NCBI GenBank assembly: GCA_030267965.1
Contig: BRYA01000554.1
Coordinates: forward strand, 1-13,858
Direction: 5' to 3'
DNA: 13,858 nucleotides
Source: Triparma columacea
Taxonomy: Eukaryota > Sar > Bolidophyceae > Parmales > Triparmaceae
The translations under genes were made by a program, and so were the position numbers. This document shows positions 175-13,190 of this stretch, in pieces. The notes below the pieces were generated by a model. The model was not told the DNA's origin and did not search any database. It worked only from the letters and a program-made list of their open reading frames with translations. The number at the start of each line of letters is the position of its first letter. Position 1 is the first letter of the stretch.

Positions 175-2958
175 CTACCGCCGTCTGATGATTGTCAGTC
201 CGTCCCTGAGTGGCAGCATAGTAACCTCTAGCCTTTCGTCCCTACAAACTGCCCCGTTAAACTCGTGCATAATCCTCGCCAGCTTTCTCCTCCTCCTGTT
301 GAGCTTGATCAGCCTCTTCTCCTCCTTCTCTTCCCCGCCATCCCCCTCTCCCCCCTCTCCCCACATGTTTTCATCGGCATCTACAACGGCCCCCTTCCAA
401 AGTACATTGTCGACAAGGATGACACCACCCTCCGCGAGGATGTTCTGGTTCCTTATGCAAACGTCGACGTACTCCAGCAATCTCCCCTTATCAGCGTCTA
501 TGAAGACGAGATCGAATCCTTCCGCCTCTTCCTTCTCCCTTGCTGCCATGTCCTCCAGGTGAACGAGTGCGTCATCAACCTTTCTCACTTCCACCGTGGT
601 TCCCGAGCCCATCTCAACTGTCCCCCCAACCCCCCCCTCTAGTTCTCTCTCTGCGATTTTCCTCCCTCCCTCACCCCATCCGCCCTCGTTCGCTGCCAGG
701 ACGTGGTGCCACGCAATCTGGCAAGCCTTCGGGTCCCTCTCGAGGCTAATCACCGTCCCCCCTCTCTTTACCCCCTCCGCAAAGCAGCACGTTGCGTACC
801 CTGTGAAGGTCCCGACCTCAAGCACCCTCCCCCCCCCCATCCCGGCCATTGTCCTCAGCAGTCTCCCCTGAATCCCGCTGCTAACCATGTGTGCCCCCGT
901 CGGCAGGTGCTTCTCCGTGTTCCTCTGTATCGCTCCGTAGATTTCCCCTACCCCCGAGCTGTATTCTTCGCAGTACCCCTGAACATCGTCAAACACTTGC
1001 GGGTCGAATTCTACCCTTTCCTTCCCCAACACCGTCCTGCTGGTGGTCCTCCCCAGCCTCCCCACGAAGACGTTCTTGCACCCTTCCCCGCAGCAGCCGT
1101 CCAGTTCCTTCCTGCAGGTGCTGCACTGCACCATCTTCTTGTGACAGGCCTTGTTGTTGCAGTTGGCAAGTAGGTTGGTCTCTCCCCCGCACGTGATACA
1201 CTTTCCCAGCTTGTGTTCCGTGATCTGCCTTCCCACCCTCCCGTCGAAGACGTAGTTGGTCCCCTGAAACAAGCTCTCCTTCCCCTCCCCCCTCTCCCTG
1301 ATCATTCTGTCGTATCCGATGACCCCCCCTTTTAATCGCCCAACGTTCGAGAACCCCATCTCCTGCTTCAGCCATGCCCCGACCTTGACGCACCTGATCC
1401 CCCCCGTGCAGTACGTCATGACCTCTCTGTCTTTCGGCACGCCCTCCAGCCTCTCCTTGAGTTTCCCCCAAGTGTCCTTGAAAGTCTCCGTCCCCAGCGG
1501 TTCCGCGTTGACGAACTTCCCTACCCCCGTCTCGTAATCGTTCCTGCAGTCAAGGAGTATTGGTCCATCTTCCCCCCCCACCTCCTGAACCTTGTTGTGC
1601 CACTCCTCCGCCGTCATGTCCCAGCCCGCGTTCTCCCAATCCAGCCCCTTATCCAGCCCGTCTGCCAGTACCTGCGCCCTGACCCTAACGTGGAGGTTCT
1701 TGAATGGCCTGTCCTTTTCGAATTCTTCCCTGCTGATGACCTCGTCGACGTTGATGCCGTTCTCCATGCACGCGAGTTCCTCCATTTCCATGCAGACATC
1801 AGTGAAGATAGGGAGGACGGAGGTCGGCACGCTCATCTGGGCGTTCACACCCTCGAAGGCAACGTACACGCGCCCGAGGGCCCCGAAGTGCTTCCAGACC
1901 CGGCGGAGGTTTTCCCCGAAGGTCTCGGGGTCGCTGATGCCTTTCTTGGGAAATGAGTAAAAGGAGATCATGCTGTTGAAGGGGTAGGGGGAGTGAAAGG
2001 AGGAGAAGGGTGAGCGGAGATTCAGTTTTGTATTTAGATCGATTGTCACTTTCCTCCTCTTAACCCCCCCCTCCCCCCCTCCTTCCACCTACCTCCAGCC
2101 CTGACTCTCCTCAACTTTCTCCTTCAGTCCTTCCATCCACTCCGGTTTCCACTCCTCCTTGACGAAGTCCGGGTTCTCCAAAATATGGACGTACGCCGTC
2201 GGCCTCTTTGGAGCCTCCTCATCACCACTCCCTTGGGCATCCTCAAACCTCTCCTCCGCTTCCCTGAACATTCTAACAACGTCCTCGTCCCCATCCACTC
2301 TTTCCCTCATCTCCCCCTCCTCCCCCTCCCCCCTCCCGAACTCGATCAAATACTCCCCCTTCCTGAGCGCCCTGAAGAAGTCGTGCAGCGTCTGTCTGAA
2401 CTCTTGTACATCCCCCATAGCCTTGGAGTCCCTCTCAACGAACATCCGCCCCCTCTTCTCCCTCCCGTTGAGGTGAAGGCTTTCCCTGAGCTCCGGGCAG
2501 ACGCTAACCTTCACAGCATAAAGATCGTCTCCTGGTGTTGGAGCAGAATCTGCAGCGGCTGTTGACATTTTCCTCCTCGCTATCCCTCTTAACCTCATAT
2601 TCCTCTTCTTTACCTCATCCTTAGTCCTCATCCTGGCCATTTTCTTCCCTTCTCTCCTCTCCTTGGCGCTTGGAGCATTTGTAAGGGAGTTGCTGCTGGA
2701 GTAGTTGCTGCTGGAGTTTGTCTCCAAATCTTCATTCACGCTCCCCAATATTGTGCACACTCGAGCTGATGCCACCCCAGCTCCCCCGCAATTGAATGCA
2801 GCAGGAAACCCCTTACACTGGTGCCATCGACATCGGCCTTTCAGCAAGTGTCCATATTTTGGCCCTATTCCAGCTCTCCCAACAACGTTAATGAAAGTGT
2901 TGTAGCTAGATACAATTGATACGCGACTGAGCAACATAATCAGCAGTAACGTAATCAT
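175..2958 (-). CDS. Fused TrhO-type tRNA U34 hydroxylase and TrmR-like O-methyltransferase
   Basis: Two exons (2958-2093, 1972-175) around a 120-bp GTAGGT...AACAG intron in phase 2; 887 residues. Residues 1-~22 are a hydrophobic leader. Residues ~150-289 are acidic and of unknown fold. From residue 290 the protein follows the UPF0176/TrhO/TSTD2 family: FYSF, then YVAFEGVNAQ, a rhodanese domain with LLDCRNDYE (~428-436) and the active-site loop CTGGIRC (477-483), then a cysteine cluster (~547-587) likely to bind zinc. Residues ~615-887 are a family-3 (CCoAOMT/COMT-like) methyltransferase: SAM motif VLEVGTFTGY (~672-681), FIDADKG (779-785), VDNVLW (809-814) and a C-terminal LPLRDGL. Known: TrhO converts tRNA U34 to ho5U using O2; TrmR, of this methyltransferase family, methylates ho5U to mo5U. 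Inference: a bifunctional mo5U34 synthase. Both domains lie in one uninterrupted exon, so the fusion does not depend on the intron call. Glycine/acid-rich insertions sit in the methyltransferase. An in-frame ATG at 3033 would add 25 residues; 2958 was chosen because the leader starts there. The methyltransferase substrate could differ from TrmR's. Confidence 0.88.
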
Positions 2959-3106
2959 TACACCCACAAATGGGGATAGTGTGGGCAAGGTAAGTCTGCT
3001 GCAGAAACTCGGGGCACTCGACCCGGGCCACATTCGTCAAGGTTTTCACAACTTTATTCACACCGAGTCAGGACTCAATTTGCCCCCATCTGACCCGAAA
3101 GTGCCG
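2959..3106. promoter_or_regulatory. Divergent intergenic promoter region
   Basis: These 148 bp separate the start codons of the TrhO-TrmR fusion gene (leftward) and the Na+/H+ exchanger (rightward), so both promoters must lie here or inside the 5' ends. I see no TATA box. An ATG at 2970 on the plus strand is followed by a good splice-donor sequence (GTAAGT at 2990-2995), which could mark a short 5' leader exon of the exchanger. The alternative upstream start of the fusion gene (3033) also lies here, so the regulatory space may be under 80 bp. Confidence 0.4.
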
Positions 3107-5180
3107 ATGGGAGACCCCCACGACGATCCGCACTCTACCGATGACGAGTCTGATGGTGTGTCCCACGACATGCCTGAGAACACAGCCCTCCTCCTGCTGT
3201 TTATTCTCACTGGCTTGCTCGTTGCTCATTTGTTAGAAATCATCATCCACAGATACCATATATACAGCATTCCGGGTTCAGGTGAGGGTCGATGAGGCTT
3301 CATTTCCCTATGAGTCCCGTTAGGACCCCCCTCTCCCCCTTCCTCTTCTCCCTCCCTGCACTTTGGATCTTACCAGATCTTACTCACAATCACCCCCTCC
3401 CCCCCCAACCCCTCCCATCCCATCCTCGACTAGGCGCCGTAATGGTGGTCGGAATTTTGACCGGCGCCGCTGTCAATTGTTTCGACAATGAAGGTCTTGG
3501 GAAGGACTGGAAGGCTGATCTTAGTGAGTAACAGTGGCCTAACTAATTCAAGGAAACGTAGTCCCCTCTCCCCCCCACTAACCCCCCCTCCCCAGTCTTC
3601 GATGAGCACCTGTTTGCCTTAATTTTCCTCCCCGTAATCATCTTCCAGTCTGGTTACTCCCTCTCAATGTCTCATTTCTTCAACCGCCTAGGGAAGATCC
3701 TCACCTACTCCTTCCTCGGGACCTTCATAACCACCCTGTTCATTGGCTTCTCACTTTTCGGCATAAGCGAGGCGGGACTTCTCAGGTGAGGGGTTGAAAA
3801 CAAAGGCCATTTTGTATATATATATATCCTCTAACTCCCCCCCTCCCCCCTCTCCCCTCCTCCCTCCCCCCTCCCTAGCAATGTTGAATTCAACCTCGCC
3901 GAGTCCCTTGCATTTGCCGCCCTAATCTCTGCAATTGACCCCGTCGCGACCCTCTGTACTTTTGGTTGCCTCCGCGTAGAGCCCAAGCTCTCCATAACGA
4001 TTATGGGCGAGTCTGTCATCAACGACGCTGTCTCCCTCGCCCTATACAGGGCGTTCGAGGGCTTTGTCGTCAACGGTTACTCCGGCTCGAGTGCCCTCCT
4101 CAAGCAGGCTGGTCTCTTTTTCTACCTAGTCATTGTATCCACCCTCATAGGGATCGTTGTCGGCTGTATTGCCGCCTTCCAGATAAAGCTGGTGTCCTCC
4201 AAGATGGGGATGAATGTCCAGGCGACCGTCATAATTCTCTGGTCGTACTTCGCCTACGCGGCAGCCGAATCTTGCAGAGTATCTGGGATAATAAGCAGCG
4301 TGATCTGCGGCATCATTATGAATCACTTCTGCAAAAAGAACCTCTCAAAGGAACAGAAGGCCTACGTGAACAAGGTCTTGCTCCTCCTCGCGTCATTTTT
4401 CGACATGTGTATCTTCTATATGGCGGGAATATCTATCGCCTTCTTCCTTTCCTCGATGGACTACGAGCTCCTACTTTGGATGTTGCCTCTGTGCCTTGTG
4501 GGGAGAGCCCTGAACATCTTCCCCATGAGCGCCATACTCAACTGGTTCGACAGCGAGGATAGAATTACACTCAAGGAGCAGACTGTGATGTGGCACGCCG
4601 GCCTCAGGGGGGCTATCGCTTTCTCCATTGCCCTTCACTTCCCCGACAACAATGGTCTCAGGGACCCGGTGATTGACTGCACCTCCATGATCATCCTCCT
4701 GTCCGTCTTCTGCCTCGGCGGCACGACCAAACCCCTCCTCAACAAGATGGGCATCCCCATGGGGGTTACTGACACCCACGAGGATCACCTGGCCGCTGTC
4801 AAGACTGCCACCAGAAATAGCAAATTTAAGAAGCAACTCCAGCACTTTGACAAGAATGTCATGAGGAAGTTGTTCATCAAGAAGAAGATGAGACACGACA
4901 GTTTCACTGGTCTCACCGAGGAAGTAAGTTGCCCTGCGCGTGTTGGTGTTAGAGATATGGGGCGTCGGCCCTCGGCCCTACCGTCTTGCTCACTCCCACC
5001 CCCCCCTTTCAGCTCCTCACTCCACCCTCCGCTGCCTCTCAACAGTTTAACCCCGGAAGCCACGACGACGATGACGCCGAGATAAAGGAAAATGCCGACC
5101 TCGGCGTGGGTGTGGTGGGGGGCGGGGGCGGCGTAACCCTTCTCGCGGGCGAGAACAATAACTCGGCTAACTTTGTCTAG
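3107..5180 (+). CDS. CPA1 family Na+/H+ exchanger (NHE)
   Basis: Five exons: 3107-3281, 3434-3523, 3596-3785, 3879-4923 and 5013-5180 (or 5046-5180), all with GT-AG borders and matching phases; 555 or 544 residues. It is a multi-pass membrane exchanger of Na+ or K+ for H+, most likely on endomembranes. Visible family signatures: first membrane helix at ~22-45; FDEHLFALIFLPVIIFQSGY (family amiloride-site region); ISAIDPVAT (168-176); GESVINDAV (195-203) with the Asn200-Asp201 pair typical of electroneutral CPA1 exchangers; and HAGLRGAIAFSIAL with conserved Arg395. The core matches the usual 12-13 helix length, followed by a short cytoplasmic tail (~100 residues) with an Asp cluster and a Gly-rich stretch. 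The start is the first in-frame ATG (a GTG-begun frame extends upstream to 2981); a leader exon from 2970 cannot be excluded. Resemblance to eukaryotic intracellular NHEs is clear; the exact subfamily is not. Confidence 0.9.
3810..3828. repeat. TA dinucleotide run in NHE intron 3
   Basis: A short run of alternating T and A sits in the third intron of the exchanger, upstream of a CTAAC branch-point-like motif at 3831-3835. It is a simple-sequence tract with no other visible role. Confidence 0.6.
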
Positions 5181-5326: not shown

Positions 5327-6627
5327 TCATTCCAACAAATCTTCCACAAATCCGGGCGTTGTCGCATCCCCATAGTGGATCGTCGAGTACTTCAACCCAT
5401 TCTTAAGCCCCATGACCACTCCAGCGTTCCGTCCGTTCCCCCCCCCCTCTTGCCCCCCCTCCCCCTTGAGCACGGCCAGGCACTTCCTGACCATGACCCC
5501 ACTGGTTCTCACGAACACCCCCCTGCTGTGCGATCTGTCAAAGAGAATCATGCTCTGCACCATTGCCTTTAAGAGCTGCGCCTTCTCACTACTGCCCATT
5601 TCCGAGTCCTTCGCGACGATCCAGGCACACATGTTCGCCACCTTGGCCAGAGCCATGTGCTCGGGCCCATCGCTTGCCCTCCCCCCCGCCTTCTTGAGGG
5701 TCTGCCCGACCCCCGCGGTTGTCGGGCCGGCCTCGGCGATCCACATGCTAATCTGGTTCGCTTTTGTTTCGCTAACGGAAGCTTGACTTTGAAACTTTCC
5801 AACGCTACGCCGGTAGAATGAAAAGTCATTCTGCAGCCCCGGGGACATCATTTTCTTTTGGTCCACGTCATAAATCAAACCCAAAAGTTCCACTACCCTC
5901 CGAGCCATCCACAAGTCCTGCATGATACAGCCTTCCCCCCCCAGTTCCCCCAGCACCGTTGGCAAGTAATCCGCCACCGCAGCAGCCTTCGTGTAAAACT
6001 CCTCAGTCTTCTTCACATTCCCAGTGAGGGCGGAAAACGCCTCTTGCTGCAGCTCCATGTCGCTCGGCTTCGAAAGCGCCTTCCGAATGGGCTCCAAGCA
6101 AGGCTTGTATGAGTCGAGCCATTCCAAGACCTCTCTCATGGCCTTTATGTGACCTTCAATCTCCTTCCCATTGCCCTTGCTCTCAGCACCTGGGGGGGGG
6201 GAGTGGAGGGGGAGGCGGACGAACGTTAGAGGATCGAAGCGAAAGCCTGTGCGCCCGCATAACGATTGCTACTTCTGAGCCACTACTTCTTTGCCATCAC
6301 AAGCCACCTTATAACTTCTTGTGCCGATCTTGTTCTGGCACACCCTATCGGCCAGCAATCAATCACCCCAACGAGGTCCAAACCAAACATTACTTCCCCG
6401 GACACCTCCCCACTCCATAACACCCGAGCCCCCAACCCCTCCACAGCACGTGACCCTCCCCCCCCCCCAACCAACTGGAAAAATCTTGCGAGAACCCGCC
6501 GTGCTCTCCAACACCCAACACCCCTCACAGCCCATATTTCCCACATCAAAAACCTAAACCCACCGTTCAAAACCTCATACTGTAGCACCCGCGGGTCGGC
6601 GGGGGGCTTTTCGAAGAGGTTGCCCAT
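5327..6627 (-). CDS. CYRI/FAM49 homologue (CYFIP-related Rac1 interactor)
   Basis: Two exons: 6627-6564 and 6189-5327, joined in phase 1 across a 374-bp GTGGGT...CCCCAG intron; 308 residues against about 320 for animal CYRI. The first exon begins MGNLFEKPP, matching the MGNL start of animal CYRI proteins, where Gly2 is myristoylated for membrane attachment. The body is the DUF1394/CYRIA-CYRIB Rac1-binding domain. The strongest match is residues ~133-149, KMMSPGLQNDFSFYRR, equivalent to KMTNPAIQNDFSYYRR in human CYRIB. It includes the Arg-Arg pair (here Arg148-Arg149) known to be needed for Rac1 binding. The C terminus (LKYSTIHYGDATTPGFVEDLL) also follows the family pattern. Known role: CYRI sequesters active Rac1 and so opposes the SCAR/WAVE complex at the plasma membrane. 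Inference: the host keeps a Rac-WAVE-actin control circuit. A Gly-rich insert lies near residue 270. Confidence 0.88.
6190..6563 (-). other. Long first intron of the CYRI homologue
   Basis: This 374-bp intron is the longest in the window. It starts GTGGGT, is G/T-rich, has a CTAAC motif at 6229-6225, and ends in a run of C before CAG. A 6-bp inverted repeat (GCCGAT / ATCGGC, about 18-nt loop) lies around 6322-6352. I looked for a snoRNA or tRNA inside and found no convincing box or cloverleaf. Open frames on the plus strand across it lack any recognisable protein. Confidence 0.6.
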
Positions 6628-8426: not shown

Positions 8427-9708
8427 TTAGGCAAGGGCCTTGGCGGAGCCACGGAGGCTCTTGGAGACCTTGACAATCTCGGCTTGTCCGTCCTGAGTAA
8501 GAACCATGTCAATGGTCATAACGGAGTACTTCACGGTGACGGTAACCTCGTCCTTGGATTCGTCGTAGGTGGCACTCTTGAAGGTGACGCCGTTCTCATC
8601 TAAAGCATCATGGGCGCAGTCCCCATCAACATCCAAATTGTCAACAACGACCTCGCTTCCGTCGAGGTGATAAGACTCGTCGGTGCAGGAGAGGCTAATG
8701 ACGCCAGAGATGGCAAGGTCCATGGAGGTCTCGGAGTTGACCTTGATATGGGTCTCAATCTTTTGACCTAGGACAGTCTTTGAGCCGGTGTAAGAGCCGT
8801 GGGGTGCATCAGCGAGGGTAATGACAGTCCTGTACTCGCCGTTCTTGGAGAGTACAAGATCGATTGAGAGGACAGAGTACTTAACAGAGACGGTGATTTC
8901 ATCGTTGGCATCATCGTAGGAAACAGACTTCAAGGTCACGCCGTTCTCGGCGAGCGCGTCATGGGCGCAGTCTCCATCCTGATCAATGTTATCAACAACG
9001 ACATCGCTCCCGTCAAGGTGGTAGGCCTCGTCGGCGCAGGAGAGCTCAATGACGCCGGAGATGGTGAGATCCATGGAAGTGTCAGAGTTGACGCTCACAA
9101 GGGCGTTGATGGTCTCACCGAGAACGGACTTGGAGCCAGAGTAAGCGCCACTGGGGGTGGTGGAGAGGGAGGCGGGGAGGGCGACCTTGATGACGGGGGC
9201 GTCGAAAGCAGAAGCCTTGGAGAGGACGAGGTCAATGGAAAGCACAGAGTACTTCACAGAGACGGTGAGGGTGTCCGCACTCTCGTCGTAGACGGTCTGT
9301 CAGGGGAGGGGACGGGCCGGGACGCGTTGGGGAGTGTTAGGTTGGCACGAAAAAGACGAAGAAAATCCAAGAAAAGCCAAGAAAAGCATGTTAGCCATGT
9401 CGCACCGCCATGTCGCACCGCACCTTCTCAAGCTTGACATTGTTTTGCTCAAGCGCATCGTGGGCACAGTCACCAGCCTCATCAATGTGGTCGAGGGTGA
9501 TCTCGGTGGCACCCATGGTGTAAGCCTCATCAGTGCAGGCAAGGTCAATCACCCCAGAGATCTGAAGATCAAGCAAGCTCTCGGAAGTTACAGAGATCTG
9601 GGCATTGATTGTTTCCCCAAGAACAGTCTTGGACCCAGTGTATACCCCACTGGGGTTGGCCAGGGCGGTGGCAAGGACGGACAATAGAGCAGCAGCGCGA
9701 AGGAACAT
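8427..9708 (-). CDS. Secreted protein with three tandem cysteine-containing beta-rich repeats
   Basis: Two exons: 9708-9424 and 9296-8427, joined in phase 0 across a 127-bp GTGCGG...TGACAG intron; 384 residues. MFLRAAALLSVLATALA is a clear signal peptide, so the protein is exported. The rest is three copies of one domain, starting near residues 21, 145 and 262. Each has G-x-Y-(T/S)-GSK-(T/S)-VLG, then MDL-x-ISGVI-x-L-x-C-x-DE-x-Y, GDCAHDAL-x-(E/Q)-N, and finally V-KYSV-x-(S/T)-ID-(L/M)-VL. Alternating hydrophobic residues suggest beta sheet. Two conserved Cys per repeat (Cys58 and Cys81 in the first) probably form a disulphide. The join was chosen because repeat 1 then matches repeats 2 and 3 exactly in phase. 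The tail (SKSLRGSAKALA) is basic. I do not know the family; a lipocalin-like barrel or cell-surface/extracellular-matrix role is possible but unproven. The TATA box and uniform, strongly C-ending codons suggest high expression. Confidence 0.88.
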
Positions 9709-10113
9709 CTTTACAGCGAGAAAACAAAAACTGAAGTAATTGCTGGCCAGTCGGAACAAGGAACGAGCGAGAGATGGTGTCAAGAAGGGCCAATGAAAGT
9801 GATTTATAGGTTTTCATGGCTTTAGGAGGTGCAAGACTCGGATTTTTTTTCAGGAAGGCAGCGAATGCGTTGTGAACGGAAGGTGCATGGGGGCGATGGG
9901 GAGAAGGACGCAAATATCTTCGTTTTTAACCTTTGTTGAGGCAACTTACCCCAACCTCACGCTGCATTTCGCGTAAGATTCGGTCAGGTTCTTATAAGAT
10001 ATGTTCCCCGAAGGCCTACCAACCTGCTCTGACGCATTCACTACATATATATCAAATCTTCATTTCATAACCGCCCACTGTTTCCCTGCCTGACCAAAAG
10101 TGTGTTGGGGAAA
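9709..10113. promoter_or_regulatory. Divergent intergenic region between secreted-protein and cNMP-binding genes
   Basis: 405 bases without a gene. Besides the leftward TATA box at 9801-9810 it has a TATATATC element at 10046-10053, about 60 bases before the rightward ATG at 10114. Between them is a T-run (9842-9850) and A/T-rich sequence with no repeat or RNA gene that I can recognise. The TTG-begun frame running upstream of 9708 lacks an ATG and was not used. Confidence 0.5.
9801..9810 (-). promoter_or_regulatory. TATA box of the secreted-protein gene
   Basis: The minus strand reads CCTATAAATC about 95 bases upstream of the ATG at 9708, a near-canonical TATAAA box in a sensible place for a 5' leader of about 60-65 bases. 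It is the best core-promoter element in the window. Confidence 0.65.
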
Positions 10114-12618
10114 ATGGAAGGCTCCAAGCCCCCTTCCCCTACCCCACCCCTCACAAGCAGGCACGAGGACAAAGACCAGCGGGGATCGCTGATCAAGAGG
10201 CAGCCCCGTAGGTCTTACGGCGGCAAAACCAGCCCAACCTCTCCCTCACTGTCCAGGAGAGGCTCTTTATCAGGGTCCTCTGTTACCTCCCCGGAGGTTT
10301 CTGGCTCCAATGCGCGCGCGCGTTCGATAAGGAAGTCACTCAATTCGCCTCGGTCGGAACAGGGCAAACAGCTGGCCACAATGATTAATGACAAGCAAGC
10401 CCTGGTCGAGCACTTCCAGAAAGCCCACATGTTTACGGAGAAGAGGATCTCCGTAAGGGAGGGTGGCAGAAGCCCCAATATCAAGCATAGAACTATACAT
10501 TTGAAGAACTCGCCTAGTGGAAACTCTCCAACAACCAACAAGAGGACTCCGAGCATGTTGATGAAATCACTTAGGAAGCACGCAAAGGCAGTTGGGAAGG
10601 CGGCGATAATGCTGGAAATGATGAAACCTCAAATGATCACGCACAAGAAGGGGGCAAAGCCTGCGAACTACGACGCTTGCAAGAGCATTCTGGAAAAGTC
10701 CCCCTTCCTTCGCTCCAGGAAGGACTGTGTGCAGCTCTTGCAGCTCGTGAAGAATGTGAAGTTCTTCCAGAACCTGGGAGAGACCCAGCAGCTCGACTTG
10801 TGCAAAGTCATGGGACACATGGACGTGGCCTGGACCAGGCAGACCATCATGTCACAAGGGGATCTTGGAAGCACTTTTTACGTAATCCTCGTCGGCTCGT
10901 TCCACGTTCAGGTCAAGGTTGAAGATAGCAAAAATTTGAAGACGGTGGCGCACCTCCACCCAGGAGATAACTTTGGAGAGGCGGCCCTGATAAACAACAA
11001 TCCGAGAAACGCCACCGTGGTGAGCGCAGAGCCCAGTGAGCTGCTAATGATTGAGAAGGAAGACTACGAGAGGGTCATCAAGTCATTGCACGTCGACGCT
11101 CTGAATAAGAAGAGTAAGTTCATCAGGAGCATTCCCGCCTTCACCAGCTTCCCAGAGGAAATAGTGAAAGGTAAGTGGGGAGAGGGGGTGAGGTGTTGGG
11201 GTGTTTGTGTGTGGGGGTGTGGGGATGTGGGGGTGTCGGTCTGTGGGGGGAGGCCGCTCAGGGCTCACCGTGCCGCGCCGCGCCACACCGCCCCACCCCG
11301 CTAAAGAAATCCTAATCTCACGCCCACTCAACAACTCACCCAGACTTGGCCACGAGGGTGCACTTTGAAAAGGTGCCCATCCATCACCCTATTTGGAAGC
11401 AGGGAGACGATGTTGATCCCATGAAGTATATCATGATCGTTAAGCACGGTGAAGTGCACGTGATTAAGGACTTCACAGTTCCGAAGATTGCTGCGTGCGG
11501 GACGACAACAAGTAGTTTCAGGACACCCACAAATAAGGAACAAGATTTCACGGAAAAGAAGAGAGCAGACCTTTGCGCCCTAGGTCCGAGCTCGGCCTTC
11601 TTAGAGAGGTCCATGTTCGACAACGGGGTGGAGAAGAAGGAGGGGGAGAGGATTACTTTGGAGGATAGGAAGAAGATGGAGGCGGGGGAAAAGCGATGTT
11701 CTTCGCTGGTGACGAGCAGCTGTTGCGAAATTGGATGGCTTTCCAAGCATATTTTCAACCAACTGACAAAGTTTGGCCTCAAGGGAGTCAACAACCAAAT
11801 ATCCCACGTCGAAGACCCGGCAGATGTAGCAGGTATCGAAGGCGATCACATTGATCACCGGGAGATGAAGAAGATCGAAGAGAGTGCCGAAAAAATGATG
11901 ATGGATTTGAGGGAATGGATGATTGAGGTAGGTTAAAATGACGGGGCGTTGGAAATCCTGGGGTCAGGGAAGGCATGGAGGGGCAATGAAGATCAACTCC
12001 ACCAAACTAACTTCCTAAACTCGCCCCTCCTCACAGTACCCCAACGAGATGGAACTGAGGCAGCTGTACGCCGAAAACAATCTCTGGAAGGAATTCAAGG
12101 AGAAAGTCATGGCGATGACCTTGGCTCAGGCCGGTACGAAGCGCTTGAAGGAGAAGATCAAGGCCGAAAAGGAGCAGAATATTGTTGAGAAGGTCAGGAA
12201 CGCCAAGTACGGCGACCACCCGCTGACCTGCGACGTTGTACTCCCGTTCCGAAAACCTGTCGATCTTCTTCCCATGAGCACAGGCACGGATCTTTCATCG
12301 CCAGAATTTGGCCTGGCACCCAGAGAGCAGCTGTACGACTTCGTTGAGAAAGACCTTACTCCGAGGAGCAAGGTGAAGCAGGTCGACCCGAAGCTGGCGA
12401 AAACCTTCGGCTACGTGAGCCCGACGACGTCGCCTAGGGACAAGGATGGTGAAAAAGGCAAAGGAACGAGAGGGAAAAAAATGAAAGGAGGGCGACAGAT
12501 AACAATCAAGAAGAGCGGGAAGAGAAGTTCTTTTTTGCTTTCTTCGCAGCGCAGGGATCTAGTAGGAGAGAAGGCAAGGGAGAAGTTGAACATACAATAT
12601 ATGGGCAACACCATGTGA
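10114..12618 (+). CDS. Protein with tandem cyclic-nucleotide-binding domains
   Basis: Three exons: 10114-11170, 11344-11927 and 12037-12618, with GTAAGT/GTAGGT donors, CAG acceptors and consistent phases; 740 residues. Residues 1-~180 are basic and Ser/Pro-rich, with several basophilic kinase sites (RRGS at 48-51, RRS, RKS) of the PKA/PKG type. CNB-A (~211-321) has the full phosphate-binding cassette FGEAALINNNPRNATV (287-302), including the Glu and Arg that contact cyclic nucleotide. CNB-B (~333-500) keeps the shape (IVKHGEVHVI 384-393; LGPSSAFLE 432-440; CCEIGWLSK 479-487) but has no intact cassette and carries a charged insertion around 441-473, so it probably does not bind nucleotide. A charged helical region and a Lys-rich tail follow. 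There is no kinase or channel domain. The layout resembles CNBD2-type proteins or PKA-regulatory-like proteins; inference: a cAMP/cGMP sensor. The start is the first ATG in frame; a GTG at 10102 is not used. Confidence 0.85.
11176..11250 (+). repeat. G-run-rich intron segment
   Basis: The first intron of the cNMP-binding gene carries at least seven runs of 4-6 G separated by short T/G-rich loops, directly after the donor site. On the transcribed RNA this could fold as a G-quadruplex. It is also low-complexity sequence prone to length change. Confidence 0.6.
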
Positions 12619-12707: not shown

Positions 12708-13046
12708 TTAAACACGGGAAGGGTAAAGCATCACACGAACGGGGGCACCAATAGACTGAGGGGGAAGAGGGCGGGAGAACTTGGCCTTCACAACACCGTT
12801 TCCTCCATGAGCCCTGCACACCTTTCCCCAGTTGACCTTGAACTTGGATCCGTCCTTTCCAGCGTTTGAGCTCTTGGTAATGTAAGCGATCTTCTTTCCA
12901 AGGTAGAAGTCAACAGCACTCTTGTCATCGACACCAGCGATCTTGATGAGGGAGGTGTGGTTGTACTGGTTCCTGAGGCCACGCTTGAATCCAAGGTGGA
13001 CGCCCTTGACGTAAAGGCGGGTAGGCTGAGTGGCGTTCTTAGTCAT
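12708..13046 (-). CDS. Large-subunit ribosomal protein eL33 (RPL35A)
   Basis: A single uninterrupted exon of 112 residues, full length for the family. It is a structural protein of the cytosolic 60S subunit. Recognisable eukaryotic eL33 landmarks in order: RLYVKGVHLGFKRGLRNQYNHTSLIKI, shown here only in part as LYVKG...FKRG..NQ..HTSLIKI; D-x-K-x-A-x-DFYLGKK-x-AY; a short basic segment; WGKVCRAHGG-NGVVKAKF; and PPQSIGAPVRVMLYPSRV at the C terminus. The ATG at 13046 gives the usual MTK-type start. It converges with the cNMP-binding gene, whose stop is only 89 bases away. CTCTCCCAAACACAG just upstream (acceptor ending at 13062) may end an intron in the 5' leader; eL33 genes often have an intron near the start. 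Confidence 0.96.
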   Translation of the reverse strand: MTKNATQPTRLYVKGVHLGFKRGLRNQYNHTSLIKIAGVDDKSAVDFYLGKKIAYITKSSNAGKDGSKFKVNWGKVCRAHGGNGVVKAKFSRPLPPQSIGAPVRVMLYPSRV

Positions 13047-13190
13047 TTTATTAGTACTATTCTGTGTTTGGGAGAGAAGCGGAGCGGATTAGAGCCATTT
13101 TGGGGAAGAGCATTCAGAGGCGGTGTGGGTGAGGGTTTGTATTTTGGCCAATTCATCGTTTTGTGATACACCATGGAATGAGATACGATA

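Follow-up and report, generated by a model that had tools for sequence, protein, structure and literature searches.

Can a eukaryote turn the wobble uridine (U34) of its transfer RNAs (tRNAs) into 5-methoxyuridine (mo5U) with a single polypeptide? The question is raised by a gene on the minus strand of contig BRYA01000554.1 of the bolidophyte Triparma columacea, which was analysed over its whole 13,858-nt stretch, hereafter the window; all coordinates refer to the window, and the residue numbers of domains and motifs refer to the product of exon 2. The gene joins a TrhO-type tRNA hydroxylase unit to a family-3 S-adenosylmethionine (SAM)-dependent O-methyltransferase. We describe here its structure and domain anatomy, the conservation of its catalytic residues and a basic loop together with the register of that loop. 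Comparison of the sequence with its relatives suggests that the protein is probably a bifunctional enzyme that would form mo5U34 in two steps, whatever compartment it works in.

Gene structure and conservation of the fusion

The gene model consists of two exons on the minus strand. Exon 1 (2093..2958) encodes an N-terminal extension made up of a candidate presequence and a conserved region of no known family, while exon 2 (175..1972) encodes the TrhO unit and then the O-methyltransferase in a single frame closed by a TAG stop. Between them lies a 120-nt GT-AG intron (1973..2092, minus strand; GTAGGT...CCCCTTCAACAG) with a pyrimidine-rich 3' end, and translation of the spliced model gives 887 residues with a single terminal stop. 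The exon junction reads ...GWSMISFYSF, as in the uninterrupted protein of relative P0004. The start codon is less sure, another in-frame ATG being present at 3033. The original prediction had described one uninterrupted exon over 175..2958; both enzymes do share one exon, but that range spans the intron and the gene thus has two exons. On the minus strand, the frame 175-2088 runs for 637 codons without a stop.

A search of 5.8 billion proteins returned 477 matches, the best 120 of which are the relatives analysed throughout. They come from genomes, metagenomes and transcriptomes, and in all 120 the precomputed domains include both PF12368 of the TrhO half and PF01596 of the methyltransferase half. 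Seven are from transcriptomes of the Marine Microbial Eukaryote Transcriptome Sequencing Project (MMETSP), which speaks for one mRNA in the relatives. An assembly or gene-model artefact, or chance, might be thought to have merged two separate genes, and this was rejected as next to impossible, since the two domains lie in one open frame with no intron between them and since the same fusion recurs in each of the 120 relatives. The fusion that the original prediction had proposed is hence real.

The TrhO half

On exon 2, Pfam finds UPF0176_N, Rhodanese and Rhodanese_C in the order of TrhO, each above its gathering score. The acylphosphatase-like UPF0176_N domain (PF17773, residues 1-101) lies at 1669..1971, the rhodanese domain (PF00581, residues 135-217) at 1321..1569 and the cysteine-rich Rhodanese_C domain (PF12368, residues 236-299) at 1075..1266, all on the minus strand. 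The NCBIfam model of TrhO, NF001133, matches with an E of 1.7e-47 and 161.9 bits, just below the bacterial equivalog cut-off of 170; for this reason we call it a TrhO-type unit and not NCBI's bacterial equivalog. With such a match, and with both domains in all the relatives, the fusion is not due to chance.

Conservation was read from an alignment of the window protein (P0003) and the 120 relatives, that is 121 rows. The CTGGIRC active-site loop, of the CXGGXR type (residues 188-194; 1390..1410, minus strand), has C188, T189, G191 and R193 invariant in 121/121 rows, and these are the counterparts of C200, T201, G203 and R205 of Escherichia coli TrhO, reported as essential (PMC6599085). Likewise, eight cysteines of the Rhodanese_C domain are invariant in all 121 rows. 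Furthermore, K112 and R114 of the tRNA surface of the E. coli protein map to R96 (121/121) and to position 98 (R in 119 rows, K in 2). In a 23-row tree, to be read with caution given its two long branches, the TrhO half stands with E. coli TrhO and the TrhO of a Chryseobacterium genome (99/99), apart from other eukaryotic rows of the TrhO family.

The methyltransferase half and its placement

The two enzymes are separated by a linker (997..1050, minus strand) that is poorly predicted in the AlphaFold2 model, with a predicted local distance difference test (pLDDT) score below 50 at residues 308-325. The methyltransferase domain follows (178..996, minus strand; PF01596), with structural matches that begin around residue 325 and reach residue 598; Pfam detects Methyltransf_3 above its cut-off in two stretches, the best at 460-597. 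The window protein has this fold together with the SAM and metal motifs, as TrmR does. All motifs on which the original prediction had relied, CTGGIRC included, were found: the SAM-binding GTFTGY (387-392; 796..813), the metal-binding FIDADKG (490-496; FIDADK at 487..504), whose D492 and D494 are conserved in 121/121 and 120/121 rows, and the metal-binding VDNVLW (520-525; 397..414), whose D521 and N522 are each kept in 120/121 rows with one gap, all three on the minus strand. It is very improbable that one half is inactive, which would leave the protein with a single activity, hydroxylation or methylation. A weak argument for such a loss is that T388, the threonine of the SAM motif, is substituted in 20/121 rows, although the window protein keeps it; against it stands the full or almost full conservation, across the two halves, of the TrhO residues tested and of the metal ligands.

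The substrate (insertion) loop carries a basic RRRRK run (283..297, minus strand), aligned in the register of TrmR. This register was defined by two positions, -10 and -12, counted from the conserved N of the FN/YN motif. Both are basic in 119/121 fusions and in three of four TrmR-type references (3ntv fails at -12), compared to none of the 171 nearest stand-alone relatives and none of six other references.

In the phylogenetic tree, the 16 sampled fusions form a separate, starred clade, and fusions and TrmR lie on one side of a branch that is unstarred, with a support of 95/28. In the approximately unbiased (AU) test, a grouping of the fusions with Bacteroidota sequences was not rejected (p 0.36), whereas a single clade with the plant caffeoyl-coenzyme A (CCoA) methyltransferases was rejected (p 0.000334), as was a wider grouping with SafC, SynOMT and 2hnk (p 0.017). 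The C-terminal domain hence falls outside the plant enzymes, a comparison that the original prediction had named as a check. The description as a TrmR-like methyltransferase is borne out for the family, the catalytic residues and the basic loop; it does not reach TrmR proper, since the motifs differ and the tree support is 95/28. Among the NCBIfam matches of the methyltransferase domain and of five relatives, there is no TrmR model. Another PF01596 match in the same assembly, C190 (25.1 bits), was not recovered by the methyltransferase profile at 1e-8 and did not enter the tree.

These results bear on a reading in which the TrhO half makes 5-hydroxyuridine (ho5U) at U34 while the substrate of the methyltransferase half is a small metabolite of the catechol type or another nucleotide, the fusion then serving co-regulation or targeting and not a shared pathway. 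Several observations lean this way and weigh against a two-step synthase: the nearest solved structures are small-molecule O-methyltransferases, in the tree the domain does not fall within TrmR, and most fusions carry GTFTGY and F(V/I/L)DADK where the four TrmR-type references have GTA(I/T)GY and FIDAAK. Moreover, the mycobacterial relative Rv0187 is reported to methylate catechols as well as free ho5U but not to be significantly active on tRNA that contains ho5U (PMC6543040). An off-pathway methyltransferase is nevertheless rather unlikely in our view, given the rejection of the CCoA clade and of the wider group with SafC, SynOMT and 2hnk, the TrmR-matching basic loop that the nearest stand-alone enzymes lack, and the retention of both domains together in every relative.

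As a separate observation, P0146 (441 residues) contains two methyltransferase copies in tandem with a basic KGPERRSLLIRD before the FS position, and is perhaps another TrmR-like enzyme.

The N-terminal region and the predicted compartment

The xAF motif is a feature of diatom plastid presequences. The N-terminus of the window protein, MITLLLIMLLSRVSIVSSYNTF, is a hydrophobic signal-like stretch, and a candidate bipartite plastid presequence, in which the hydrophobic stretch MITLLLIMLLSRVSIVSS precedes Y-N-T-F, can be delimited approximately at 2890..2958 (minus strand); it passes the motif test only in the looser W/Y/L form, with Y replacing F. The test was applied to the 95 relatives that begin with M and whose active-site loop is preceded by more than 380 residues, with thresholds chosen after the sequences had been seen and on rows that are related. 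An early hydrophobic stretch was observed in 40/95 relatives (shuffles: mean 19.4, maximum 28) and a hydrophobic stretch with xAF in 20/95 (mean 3.4 and maximum 9 in 500 shuffles), compared to at most 1 in 200 draws of internal stretches. As a control, fusions of TrhO to a pseudouridine synthase, paralogues without the extension, were examined: none of the 44 usable rows passes the xAF test and 2 have the hydrophobic stretch. Their TrhO unit begins near the N-terminus, with a median of 53 residues to the EGxN motif versus 307 in 89 TrhO-methyltransferase fusions, 18 of which pass the xAF test versus 0/44 (Fisher p 0.0007, on related rows).

Provided that the two-step chemistry holds, import of the fusion into the plastid appears likely because presequence-type N-termini occur in these 20 relatives and in none of the controls, and because the window N-terminus nearly fits. 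The same chemistry may instead take place in the mitochondrion or the cytosol, a less likely alternative that concerns the compartment only. It would account for the 75/95 relatives that fail the xAF test and for some N-termini that are arginine-rich by eye (P0005, P0108), both of which weigh against a plastid site. Phytophthora, moreover, has no plastid. The fusion has been reported in that genus (PMC6599085), which also speaks for a site elsewhere, so that the compartment may differ between lineages. A search for the organelle genomes in the assembly of the window yielded no psbA-type or COX1 family match.

Further along the extension, the diatom and Triparma fusions share a conserved domain, some 120 residues long (LYAVKVSVCPELRE.. 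GREKRGRMFVE .. FFRALRK; approximately 2161..2523, minus strand), and it has no Pfam or PDB match above cut-off (best PDB E 0.65). A second copy of UPF0176_N was considered for it and rejected, the resemblance being weak and the profile comparison not significant (probability 0.6%).

Distribution and origin of the fusion

The named sources among the 120 relatives are Triparma verrucosa, T. laevis, diatoms and one entry labelled Alexandrium, a dinoflagellate, which is probably a mislabelling or a contamination. The closest relative shares 79% identity with the window protein, and the two named Triparma proteins 55-56%. The oomycete fusions rest on PMC6599085, none having been retrieved among these best matches.

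A search with the methyltransferase alone gave 7412 matches, and among the best 120 of these, fragments of fusions come first, followed by stand-alone enzymes, mostly of 210-235 residues and at about 30% identity; those with a named organism are from Bacteroidota. An origin from a bacterial operon was considered and rejected: a TrhO-like frame was found near only 1 of the 80 nearest methyltransferase loci (L069; up to 5 kb on each side, often less). Long TrhO matches (E 2.4e-31 or better, from residues 2-20 to about 300) are present in 21/41 genomes of the phylum of a Chryseobacterium locus. TrhO and the methyltransferase in one frame were found in none of the 41 sampled Bacteroidota genomes and in none of another set of six, which has one genome in common with them.

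Other TrhO-type genes and neighbours in the window

The assembly of the window contains six TrhO-type genes, of which five have Rhodanese_C and one was recognised by similarity. One of the six (G000:C164:42312-43080; L088, L095) encodes the rhodanese active site and, further on in the same frame, an RluA-type pseudouridine synthase (PF00849), and has no long N-terminal extension. This TrhO-RluA fusion is common in diatoms and Parmales, both motifs occurring in that order in 58 of its best 120 relatives, and, judged by their titles, none of the papers returned by the literature search deals with it. Two further TrhO-like genes carry an RNA recognition motif (RRM) tail (E 1.4e-6; G000:C773:23204-23755, L086) and a CCCH-type zinc finger (21.4 bits, below the 25.8 cut-off; G000:C589:7237-7473, L087).

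The other genes in the window are ordinary eukaryotic neighbours of the fusion gene, among them a Na+/H+ exchanger (3835-5085, plus strand), a protein with a CYRIA/CYRIB Rac1-binding domain (5327-6268, minus strand), a cyclic-nucleotide-binding protein (10033-11304, plus strand) and ribosomal protein L35Ae (12708-13088, minus strand). In the open frame 8427-9299 (minus strand), the repeat LSC.DE.YHLDGS.VVVDN..DGDCAHDAL occurs at least twice and no Pfam family exceeds its cut-off; the related frame 9391-9813 is signal-peptide-like.

Proposed function and comparison with known systems

For both activities, the order of the steps, the hand-over, the substrate tRNAs and the compartment, we infer the following scheme. 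The N-terminal TrhO unit would use O2 to hydroxylate U34 in tRNAs of quartet boxes, yielding ho5U, and the C-terminal metal- and SAM-dependent methyltransferase would then methylate the new hydroxyl to give mo5U34. The basic loop may hold the anticodon arm and the flexible linker may pass the intermediate from one half to the other, the overall action resembling that of TrhO plus TrmR, in a protein that would be imported into the plastid. At its fullest, this proposal is that the plastids of diatoms and bolidophytes use a one-polypeptide mo5U34 synthase, assembled from two bacterial enzymes and imported through a bipartite presequence, to set a wobble-U mark with which a minimal tRNA set reads whole quartet boxes. 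We offer it tentatively, somewhat nearer to doubt than to acceptance.

If true, a bacterial (Gram-positive-type) pathway of 5-hydroxyuridine derivatives (xo5U) would be operating in a eukaryote. Such derivatives have been described as specific to bacterial tRNA (PMC10516636); according to a review, mass spectrometry did not reveal them in Chlamydomonas, and the same review gives chloroplast quartet-box U34 as unmodified or as an unknown U* (PMC8877259). A two-step enzyme that is conserved in diatoms and that bears a presequence of the plastid type in some relatives is a concrete and testable candidate for a plastid U34 mark, and makes the U34 question testable in the red plastid lineage and in an ecologically important group. 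Having both steps on one polypeptide would also offer a handy system for the hand-over of a tRNA intermediate.

The original prediction knew of no described eukaryotic protein of this kind. The fusion was in fact already in print: Sakai et al. (2019, PMC6599085) report yceA fused to trmR in Phaeodactylum tricornutum, Phytophthora sojae and P. ramorum, there called bacterial species, as a clue for finding TrhO, and they take the TrhO homologues of eukaryotes as a sign that these organisms, too, have an xo5U modification. The literature searched held no test of that suggestion and, concerning the fusion or mo5U in diatoms, no mention of the fusion beyond that paper. The remaining interest lies in the putative eukaryotic activity and its probable plastid location.

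Compared with known systems, bacterial TrhO (E. coli YceA; Bacillus subtilis TrhO, PDB 9j5o) resembles the TrhO half in its domain order, its CTGGIRC loop, the cysteine-rich domain at its C-terminus and the basic residues of the tRNA surface. The E. coli enzyme is a stand-alone protein of 350 residues, whereas in the Triparma protein the TrhO unit is preceded by a further domain and followed by the methyltransferase. TrmR (B. subtilis YrrM, PDB 5zw3/5zw4) shares the family-3 O-methyltransferase fold, the metal ligands and the register of the basic insertion loop; it differs by GTAIGY/FIDAAK in place of GTFTGY/FIDADK, the fusions form their own clade, and their action on tRNA is a prediction. 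The nearest stand-alone sequences, bacterial O-methyltransferases of about 210-250 residues and mainly from Bacteroidota, are about 30% identical and share GTFTGY and DADK but are devoid of the basic loop (0/171 rows), and we know of no tested function for them. The plant CCoA O-methyltransferases belong to the same Pfam family, but a common clade with them is rejected. The closest parallel is the fusion of Sakai et al., which by its description joins the same two enzyme families in one gene; it is given as a passing clue, in one sentence and a figure legend, with no analysis of activity, compartment or domains in the available text of the paper (PMC6599085). To this already known fusion, the Triparma protein adds a member with evidence from conservation, the basic loop, the tree and the presequence.
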